Assembly: GCF_016862935.1 (NCBI RefSeq)
Contig: NZ_BONX01000023.1
Coordinates: 248,001 to 312,000, forward strand
Direction of reading: 5' to 3'
DNA: 64,000 nucleotides
Source: Plantactinospora mayteni
GTDB lineage: Bacteria; Actinomycetota; Actinomycetes; Mycobacteriales; Micromonosporaceae
Shown here: positions 8,073-9,975 of the stretch, in pieces
How positions within the stretch are numbered: the stretch's first letter is position 1
Layout: each line of letters begins with the position of its first letter
The notes under the pieces: generated by a model
Database searches by the model: none
What the model was told of the DNA's origin: nothing
Seen by the model: only the letters and a program-made list of their open reading frames with translations
Position numbers and translations under genes: made by a program

Positions 8073-8768
8073 GTGAAGTGGTGGCTGTGGTCGTACGTCG
8101 GAATCAGCGCGGTCGCGGTGCTGTGGTTCCTCCGGTGGAGCCGTAACACGAAGGGAATTCCCCGGATCGCGTACCTGCTGGTCGTCGTCATCCTGGTCTG
8201 GTCCCTCGCCTGGCACCTGGTCATGGCGCTCGGGATCGGTGAGACGGGCGCCGACGATCGGCGGATCTCCTGGGCGCACTACGCGGACTGGATCGTGACC
8301 GCGCCGTTGCTGCTGGTCGCCCTGGTGCTCACCGCCACGCACGCGCTCTCCGAGAAGCGGGCCGGCCTGGTGCTCACGCTGCTGCTGGGGAGCTTTCCGA
8401 TCATCCTCTCCGGCCTCGCCGCCGACCTGCTGGTGGACGAGGTGGCGCGGTTCGCGGTCTACGGCGTCGGCATGCTCGGCCTGGGCATCGTCGTCGCGCT
8501 GATCTGGGGTCCGCTGCGCGCCACGGCGGAGGCGCAGCCGTCGGCGATGGCATCGCACTTCAGGTTGACCGCGCTGGTCCTGTCCGTACTGTGGTTCTGC
8601 TTCCCGCTGGTGTGGATCCTCGGGCCGCCCGGGGTCGGGATCGTCGACGCCGAGGCCAGCGCCGTGCTCTTCGCCACGCTGTCGGCCCTGATGAAGATCG
8701 GCTGGAGTCTGCTCGACATCGGCCGGCTCCGCCGACTCTCCGACCGCGGCCTCCTGCACGTCGATTGA
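8073..8768 (+). CDS. Microbial rhodopsin with altered key residues
   Basis: 231 aa, seven membrane helices (about 3-21, 31-54, 68-90, 97-120, 126-147, 163-183, 195-216). GTG starts at 8073 or 8070 fit GGGAG at 8060-8064. Helix C reads WAHYADWIVTAPLLL and helix G LFATLSALMKIGW; both align without gaps to bacteriorhodopsin. Kept: the Schiff-base Lys208 (K216), Asp72 (D85), Thr76 (T89), Trp67, Trp73, Pro78, Trp174 (W182), Pro178 and Trp181 (W189). Changed: His69 for Arg82, Ala83 for Asp96, Ser204 for Asp212, Phe177 for Tyr185, and Pro186 and Ser196 for the proton-release Glu194 and Glu204. Retinal binding is likely. Classical proton pumping is doubtful; sensing, another ion or slow pumping are open. 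The next gene encodes a retinal-forming enzyme. Confidence 0.9.
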   Translation: MKWWLWSYVGISAVAVLWFLRWSRNTKGIPRIAYLLVVVILVWSLAWHLVMALGIGETGADDRRISWAHYADWIVTAPLLLVALVLTATHALSEKRAGLVLTLLLGSFPIILSGLAADLLVDEVARFAVYGVGMLGLGIVVALIWGPLRATAEAQPSAMASHFRLTALVLSVLWFCFPLVWILGPPGVGIVDAEASAVLFATLSALMKIGWSLLDIGRLRRLSDRGLLHVD

Positions 8769-8855
8769 ACCTTTTTCAACCTGAACCGCGCGGCGCTCAC
8801 ACACCGCGTCCGACGTTGCGCTCCGCCGAACGGCAAGGGGAGGTTGAAAAGGTTC
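8767..8855. promoter_or_regulatory. Inverted repeat spanning the rhodopsin-blh junction
   Basis: GAACCTTTTTCAACCT (8767-8782) is matched by AGGTTGAAAAGGTTC (8841-8855); the arms differ by a single T. The left arm overlaps the rhodopsin stop codon. The right arm contains the AAAAGG that would serve as ribosome site for the TTG start of blh at 8857. The 58-base loop allows pairing in mRNA, which could hide the blh ribosome site, or the arms could be halves of a protein-binding site. The AT-rich arms stand out in this GC-rich window. Confidence 0.6.
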
Positions 8856-8856
8856 A

Positions 8857-9975
8857 TTGAACACCCGCCACGACCCGATCCGACCGGACCGCCGCCGGGC
8901 GGCAGATCAGCGCCGGGCCGAGGGCCAGGACAGCCGCCGGGCCGAGGGCCGGGACAGCCGCCGGGCCGGCGGACCCGGGTACGGCCCGAGGCTGCTCCGC
9001 CGGGCCGGCGCCGCCTCCGGCCTCGTCCTGGGCGCCACGCTCACGCTGTACCCGCTCACGCTGTACCCGCTCGCCCTCTCCGAGCCGGTGTCGTCCTCGC
9101 CCCTCCCCACACTGCTCGGGCTGCTGCTCGGGCTTCCACACGGCGCGGTGGACCACCTGGTGCCGGGCTGGCTGGGGTCGGCGCGGCGGCTACCCGTACG
9201 GCTGGCCGTGCTGCTCGGGTACGCCGGCACGGCCGGTGCCGCGCTCTGCGCGTTCCTCGCCCGTCCGGCGGCGGCGCTGCTGGGGTTCCTGGTGCTCTCC
9301 GTCGTCCACTTCGGCGCCGGTGACGAGGCGTTCCGGGCCGAACGGGAGGGCGTCCGTCCGCGACTGCGGCCCTTCGGCGTACTCGCGTACGGCGGTCCGC
9401 CGGTGGTCCTGCCGCTCGCGCTCTGGCCGGAGCAGGTCGACCCGCTCCTGGAACGGGTCGCCGCCGGGTCCACGGCGCTGCTCACCGCCGAGGTACGCGC
9501 CGGGGCACTCCTGCTCACCGCGCTGGCGATCACGGTCACCGCGCTGCGTGATCTGGCCCGGGGACGCCGGGGCGACGTCGCCCAGCTCGGCGTCCTCACC
9601 GCCGTGTTCGTGGTCGTCCCGCCCACCTGTGCGTTCGGGGTCTACTTCGCGGCCTGGCACTCGCTGCGGCATGTGGCACGGCTGCTCGCCGCCGATCCCG
9701 CGAACGCGGCGTGTCTGCGGGAAGGGCGGCTGGCTCCGGCGTTGTGGCGTTTCGCCCGGCAGGCGGCGCTGCCGACCGGGATCGTCCTGGTCTCGTTCGC
9801 CCTGCTGGTCTGGTACGCCGGTCCGGCGGGGACGCTGCCCGCGGCGTTCGCCGTGCTGGCCGCGCTCACCCTGCCGCATGCCCTGGTCGTGGCCTGGCTG
9901 GACCGGCACCGCCCCGGCGGGCCACGCGACGTGGACCGGCCGGCCCGCCCGCCCGCGACCCGGAACCGTCGGTGA
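8857..9975 (+). CDS. blh: Brp/Blh-family beta-carotene 15,15'-dioxygenase
   Basis: 372 aa, multi-pass membrane enzyme. The family cleaves beta-carotene into two retinal molecules with an iron held by histidines. The expected motifs are present in order: GLPHGAVDH (92-100), VHFGAGD (150-156), WHSLRH (267-272) and TLPHALV (338-344). It follows the rhodopsin by 88 bases on the same strand, so it most likely makes the chromophore. The TTG start at 8857 has AAAAGG four bases away. The first 45 residues are an Arg-rich repetitive tail (RRAEGQDS, RRAEGRDS) from a 24-bp DNA repeat and may be dispensable. The last residues (ATRNRR) lie in the first unit of a 68-bp repeat array. Carotenoid synthesis genes are not in the window. 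Confidence 0.9.
   Translation: MNTRHDPIRPDRRRAADQRRAEGQDSRRAEGRDSRRAGGPGYGPRLLRRAGAASGLVLGATLTLYPLTLYPLALSEPVSSSPLPTLLGLLLGLPHGAVDHLVPGWLGSARRLPVRLAVLLGYAGTAGAALCAFLARPAAALLGFLVLSVVHFGAGDEAFRAEREGVRPRLRPFGVLAYGGPPVVLPLALWPEQVDPLLERVAAGSTALLTAEVRAGALLLTALAITVTALRDLARGRRGDVAQLGVLTAVFVVVPPTCAFGVYFAAWHSLRHVARLLAADPANAACLREGRLAPALWRFARQAALPTGIVLVSFALLVWYAGPAGTLPAAFAVLAALTLPHALVVAWLDRHRPGGPRDVDRPARPPATRNRR

Follow-up and report, generated by a model that had tools for sequence, protein, structure and literature searches.

A derived rhodopsin lineage inside the xenorhodopsin clade, encoded beside a retinal-forming enzyme gene in Plantactinospora mayteni

We analysed a rhodopsin gene in a 64,000-nucleotide stretch of the genome of the soil-type actinobacterium Plantactinospora mayteni (contig NZ_BONX01000023.1, positions 248,001 to 312,000; the whole stretch is called the window here, and Table 1 gives its features). 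The open reading frame translates into 231 residues without internal stops, matches the Pfam family Bac_rhodopsin at 126.8 bits (cut-off 24.6), and begins with a GTG codon whose position agrees with the starts in its relatives. The GC content by codon position, taken over a longer 261-codon version of the same reading frame, is 0.67/0.49/0.93. An AlphaFold2 model, built from an alignment of 26 relatives, has seven helices with a mean pLDDT of 90.6, and its best fold match was BcXeR from Bacillus coahuilensis (PDB 7zn3: rmsd 1.1, TM 0.91/0.95, 35% identity), followed by the Anabaena sensory rhodopsin (ASR). The sequence count of lysines and arginines in the loops gives nine inside versus four outside when the N-terminus is read as lying outside, a balance that leans towards this usual orientation.

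Table 1. Features of the rhodopsin locus in window coordinates; BR, bacteriorhodopsin numbering; the clade comprises six genomes.
Feature	Position	Strand	Description
Rhodopsin gene	8073..8768	+	GTG start, 231 aa, seven helices, Bac_rhodopsin family
His48 codon (BR57)	8214..8216	+	Tyr in BR; His in 6/6 of the clade, Tyr in 20/20 other xenorhodopsin-type proteins of the family
His69 codon (BR82)	8277..8279	+	Arg in BR; in the clade, His in 5/6 and Tyr in 1/6
Asp72 codon (BR85)	8286..8288	+	Sole carboxylate remaining of the BR counterion pair
Phe177 codon (BR185)	8601..8603	+	Tyr in BR; Phe in 6/6 of the clade, Tyr in 20/20 others
Asp192 codon (BR200)	8646..8648	+	Asp in 6/6 of the clade versus 1/20 others; possible extracellular proton group
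Ser204 codon (BR212)	8682..8684	+	Asp in BR; Pro in ASR and BcXeR
Met207 (BR215) and Lys208 (BR216) codons	8691..8696	+	Lys208 is the retinal lysine
Asp215 codon (ASR Asp217 equivalent)	8715..8717	+	Asp in 26/26 xenorhodopsin-type proteins; cytoplasmic acceptor position of xenorhodopsin pumps
Repeated palindromic element	8766..8856	.	About 91 bp, terminal inverted repeats; separates the rhodopsin stop from the blh start
blh	8857..9975	+	Retinal-forming Brp/Blh beta-carotene 15,15'-dioxygenase; the listed ORF begins with TTG; Pfam BCD 172.3 bits, TIGR03753 177.2 bits

The gene directly downstream on the same strand, blh, follows the rhodopsin gene in all six loci of the clade described below, and also in four of the five other xenorhodopsin-type loci that we fetched, being absent in L128. 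Elsewhere in the genome, a phytoene synthase, a CrtI-like oxidoreductase and a NUDIX protein are encoded beside a MerR/B12-binding regulator (L141:7730-12187), and two CarR-type cyclase domains were found (TIGR03462); the assignments to CrtI and cyclase follow from family matches and should be taken as putative. Matches to the lycopene-cyclase family PF05834 were weak and partial, and were set aside. The presence of blh and of the carotenoid genes makes it likely that the rhodopsin gene encodes a functional pigment and comes with its own source of retinal. Regulators of the MerR/B12-binding type are known as light sensors, and the position of this one beside the carotenoid genes thus suggests that pigment synthesis may be controlled by light. 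The neighbouring genes that were scanned included no recognisable transducer gene, and a scan for promoters and terminators found none.

While the rhodopsin and blh genes overlap or abut in the relatives, in the window they are held apart by the palindromic element, which has at least 41 matches in the genome (40 of the 175 candidates were scored) and a predicted fold of -40.6 kcal/mol (z -3.56). In all eight aligned copies, the base 5' of the 5' repeat is identical to the base 3' of the 3' repeat and is followed by T, so that the flanking bases look like a 2-bp target duplication. When the element is removed by eye, the empty site would read TTGA as a stop/start overlap, comparable with the ATGA or GTGA found in two relatives, L025 and L024.

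We then compared the retinal-binding site with that of bacteriorhodopsin (BR). In BR, Asp85 and Asp212 are surrounded by Tyr57, Tyr185 and Arg82. The MAFFT alignment with BR placed H82, D85, T89, A96, F185, P194, S204, S212 and K216 in the window protein, exactly as the first-pass annotation had named them, with His at both BR57 and BR170, Met at BR215 and Asp at BR200. Of the five BR residues, the protein thus retains Asp85 alone, and the site consists of one carboxylate, two histidines, a serine and a methionine, while the tryptophans of the pocket and the retinal lysine are kept. A sequencing error was ruled out as the source of these replacements, as five other genomes carry the same changes.

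To place these changes we searched 354 genomes of the same family, Micromonosporaceae, with the Pfam model (E up to 0.001). As a result, 33 genomes matched: six through weak partial hits only, one through an NDQ-type protein only, and 26 with one xenorhodopsin-type protein each. The variant site occurs in six of the 354 genomes, namely those of the window, L024, L025, L026, L027 and L028, which belong to three genus groups; all six share H57, D85, T89, F185, M215 and K216, together with H82 and S212, which are Tyr and Thr, respectively, in L027. The other 20 xenorhodopsin-type proteins have Y57, R82 (Gln in L022), Y185, S212 (16) or P212 (4), and S215 (17) or T215 (3). H57, F185 and M215 each occur in six of 117 aligned rows and are restricted to the six genomes; a residue other than Arg at BR82 is found in seven of the 117, these six and the one Gln. 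Further residues set the clade apart from the other 20: L50 and H170 (6/6 versus 0/20), A54, I198 and A213 (5/6 versus 0/20), and D200 and R33 (6/6 versus 1/20). These alignments leave out ORFs with identical cores and hits above the E limits, and the 117-row set also leaves out pieces shorter than 150 aa; three weak partial Pfam matches (L002, L029 and L030) are not in the tabulated data. Two members of the clade, L027 and L028, have Thr in place of Pro at BR186.

Samples of the order (397 genomes), class (394) and phylum (396) were also searched, with matches ranked by score and the best loci aligned. Among the matches listed from these samples, nothing outside the family came near the clade scores: the best reached 34.5 (order), 40.8 (class) and 108.9 bits (phylum), against 483.6 and 390.6 bits for the window protein, and L092, the 108.9-bit protein, retains both R82 and D212. 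Viral contigs contained no relative (14 pattern matches, none confirmed), and plasmids gave three distant hits with 28-34% identity. A scan of the wider genome contigs with the single sequence gave 54 pattern matches, none of which was confirmed, and the alignment-based scan of the same contigs returned two records, Micromonospora sp. CB01531 and MP36, with no addition to the six. NCBIfam had a model for none of the five rhodopsins submitted.

A maximum-likelihood tree of 46 of the 117 rows united the six proteins in one clade (100/99), which joined first with the 16 Ser212 proteins that have Arg82 or Gln82 (99/96), next with one Pro212 protein (87/79) and with the other three Pro212 proteins (99/97), and then with ASR and BcXeR (100/100). 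The six remained one clade (100/100) in a 35-row tree in which BR columns 57, 82, 185, 186, 212 and 215 were masked. The deep joins are less sure, because BR and BcXeR have long branches. The joining order implies that Pro212 was first replaced by Ser, and that Y57H, R82H, Y185F and S/T215M would have followed on the branch to the clade. Separately on this tree, the L022 protein (L022:635-1330, minus strand) lost Arg82 to Gln while keeping Tyr57 and Tyr185. The window rhodopsin is thus a derived type-1 lineage inside the xenorhodopsin clade and is not isolated, as it nests with ASR and BcXeR. The first-pass annotation had asked whether the combination H/D/T/A/S/K at BR82/85/89/96/212/216 defines a clade; the pattern indeed marks one, although the exact set varies within it, since BR96 is Ala in two and Ser in four of the six, in addition to the Tyr82 and Thr212 of one member.

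Comparison with the xenorhodopsins qualifies the novelty of the site. NsXeR itself carries Trp at BR82. In the published descriptions that we drew on, xenorhodopsins have Trp or Phe at BR82 and Pro at BR212, and NsXeR has Ala at BR96. The joint loss of R82, D96 and D212 is therefore already on record in this group; for the full combination, our searches of open-licence papers listed no study of the clade or of a rhodopsin that bears it. What stands out in the aligned sequences is rather H57 with H82, F185, S212 and M215. The window protein shares with the xenorhodopsins a BR96 position that lacks a carboxylate donor (Ala). Pro at BR212 was proposed in 2011 as diagnostic of xenorhodopsins, according to the part of that work consulted (PMC3198991), and with Ser204 in its place we call the protein a derived lineage inside the clade and not a canonical xenorhodopsin. 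BcXeR (PDB 7zmy and 7zn3), the best solved match by both sequence and fold, shares D85, A96, the cytoplasmic Asp at BR223 and the loss of Asp212, but has Y57, R82, Y185, P212 and S215 where the window protein has H57, H82, F185, S212 and M215. ASR likewise belongs to the same clade, has Asp212 replaced and keeps the Asp217 equivalent, but differs by Y51, R72, Y179, P206, S209 and E36; both ASR and BcXeR thus retain the Arg82 that the window protein lacks. In addition, the ASR gene adjoins its transducer gene, whereas the window rhodopsin gene adjoins blh.

The helix-B histidine had been read at first as a partner of Asp72 in the manner of proteorhodopsins. Both types indeed have a helix-B His near the counterion, but the residues are not equivalent: the His of the proteorhodopsin-like rows lies at BR56 (47 of 58 rows), presumably His75 of green proteorhodopsin, whereas His48 replaces Tyr57 and all six clade members have Trp at BR56. 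Judged by alignment position, His80 of heliorhodopsins, which has been equated with BR Tyr57, is the closer analogue. Published comparisons place heliorhodopsin Phe207 at BR Tyr185 and Ser235 at BR Asp212, so that H57, F185, S212 and the SxxxK motif in helix G are common to heliorhodopsins (48C12, AbHeR) and the window protein. Leu50 and Ala54 before the His are also present, by eye, in eight heliorhodopsins of the family, as in the clade (eight of ten loci, with L152 and L153 left out). However, the heliorhodopsin family PF18761 gave no match to the window protein at E up to 1 and none in the whole genome (G000); together with the position in the tree, this indicates that the three heliorhodopsin replacements are found here outside the heliorhodopsins. 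H57, F185 and S212 therefore look like a partial convergence at sequence level on a heliorhodopsin-like site, partial because heliorhodopsins keep Arg82, have Glu at BR85 (motif ESL) where the window protein has Asp (motif DTA), carry Ala at BR215, have another His in helix A, and are inverted in the membrane with the N-terminus inside, where the loop charges of the window protein lean the other way.

Replacement of Arg82 by His also has precedents. In the parts consulted of a 2022 catalogue (PMC9601134), 214 such sequences are grouped as H-type Alt-rhodopsins, an umbrella term and not a clade, and nine of the new Arg82-substituted sequences with confident origin are actinobacterial; members of our clade may be among the entries of its tables. 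The giant-virus H-type group described there has DxxxK, unlike the window protein. A 2018 survey lists, in the part available to us, annotations of proteorhodopsin-family and sensory rhodopsin II proteins in Micromonospora (PMC5765111). Other comparisons drew on parts of PMC5118547, PMC8518763, PMC13093656, PMC9726877, PMC9529153 and PMC12002130.

The genomes of the two groups differ in their other rhodopsins. Of the 20 genomes that encode the other xenorhodopsin type, 16 have a second Bac_rhodopsin match, versus none of the six of the clade (Fisher p 0.0009, a test that treats related genomes as independent). In 14 of these 16 (L004-L007, L010, L013, L014 and L016-L022) the second protein has an NDQ motif, and its gene lies next to the Arg82- or Gln82-type xenorhodopsin gene and is transcribed divergently from it; the remaining two sit elsewhere in the genome. 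An outward sodium pump of the NDQ type and a possible inward proton pump could carry out a joint light-driven sodium/proton exchange. Small photocurrents were reported for one NDQ protein of Micromonospora (PMC5531490). Heliorhodopsins occur in 11 of the 20 versus none of the six (p 0.024, with related genomes again treated as independent). In one genome, the heliorhodopsin match consists of two neighbouring segments that are read in different frames (G206:C1:1026765-1027417), possibly a frameshifted gene.

We tentatively favour, with a little less than even confidence, a proton-shuttling photoreceptor with weak or no pumping. Retinal would be bound to Lys208, with Asp72 as the only nearby acidic counterion; on light-driven isomerisation, the Schiff-base proton would pass to Asp72 and be shared with His48 and His69, by analogy with heliorhodopsins, for which transfer to Glu107 and on to His80/His23 with no bulk release has been proposed. 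A slow return of the proton would make the protein mainly a slow light sensor or proton-shuttling switch, with transfer to the cytoplasmic Asp215 as a competing route. The match of H57, F185 and S212 to heliorhodopsins argues for this reading, and a 2022 paper states, in its part consulted, that the heliorhodopsins studied up to then do not pump; against it, a giant-virus heliorhodopsin is described as transporting protons, the likeness to heliorhodopsins is only partial, and no transducer gene was recognised nearby. The conservation of the clade as a unit with blh, in genomes that all lack a second Bac_rhodopsin match, also points to a shuttle.

The close rival, a real possibility but one we hold at clearly less than even, is that the protein pumps protons inward in the light, as NsXeR, PoXeR and BcXeR do. 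The proton would then pass by way of Asp215 to the cytoplasm, and the Schiff base would be reprotonated from outside through Asp72 and the two histidines. The position inside the xenorhodopsin clade, the fold match to BcXeR and the invariance of Asp215 all favour it, and this invariance counts against the shuttle. In published work, PoXeR D216N and NsXeR D220N impair or abolish pumping, which makes the kept Asp215 meaningful; the PoXeR paper attributes inward transfer to there being only one negative charge at the Schiff base; and xenorhodopsins can pump inward without R82. NsXeR, as described there, pumps inward without Asp212 and Asp96, with the single counterion Asp76 and the acceptor Asp220, which again speaks against the shuttle. 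The accessory residues point the other way. In PoXeR, E35 is reported to tune the cytoplasmic acceptor, and E35 and D108 are both needed for full pumping; the window protein has Ala33 at the position of PoXeR E35 and ASR E36, and Ser107 at BR115, where we placed D108 by numbering offset. This favours the shuttle over the inward pump, although Glu is kept in three of the six clade members (and in 20/20 others), and 16 of the 20 others likewise lack Asp at BR115, where they have Asn. The functional His48 of NsXeR, on the cytoplasmic side at BR46, is Val in the window protein, whose own His lies at BR57; this comparison follows the published description of NsXeR. Finally, ASR has both the Asp and the Glu and yet is reported not to transport, so that Asp215 alone is no proof of pumping and these Asp/Glu residues are not decisive.

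Outward proton transport with Asp215 as the cytoplasmic donor, or an anion bound or moved at the histidine pair, appears improbable. Without tuning of the Glu36 type, Asp215 might be protonated in the dark, following a pKa argument in part of the published work, and two histidines beside the Schiff base could draw an anion; however, the protein has neither an Asp96 or Glu96 donor nor a BR194/204 release pair, nor the helix-3 (TM3) motif of the chloride pumps described in the consulted sources (NTQ or TSD). Decay of the gene with a drifted active site, for which the repeat element between genes that otherwise overlap or abut and the longest branch in the clade (0.57 versus 0.02-0.48) might speak, is highly unlikely, given that six genomes from three genus groups carry these replacements as fixed changes, that NG86 dN/dS is below 1 in all 15 pairs of clade members (0.35-0.63; YN00 gave 0.11-0.19 in five of the 15), that the retinal lysine and pocket tryptophans are kept, and that blh follows in every case.

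A bolder extension of the favoured proton-shuttling reading, which we regard as somewhat unlikely, is that a heliorhodopsin-type Schiff-base site (H57, F185, S212, L50 and A54) would have evolved independently within the xenorhodopsins, with a histidine-held proton and a signalling role, and may stand in for the heliorhodopsin that these genomes lack. In rhodopsins, a few residues around the Schiff base decide which way and with what yield the proton is transferred, and this one family holds a natural series, from P212/R82/Y57/Y185 through S212/R82/Y57/Y185 to S212/H82/H57/F185/M215, so that the step that turns pumping into something else becomes directly testable. If the last step is heliorhodopsin-like, it would show how few residues a type-1 scaffold needs for heliorhodopsin-type chemistry, and would provide research and optogenetics with a new His-Asp pigment.
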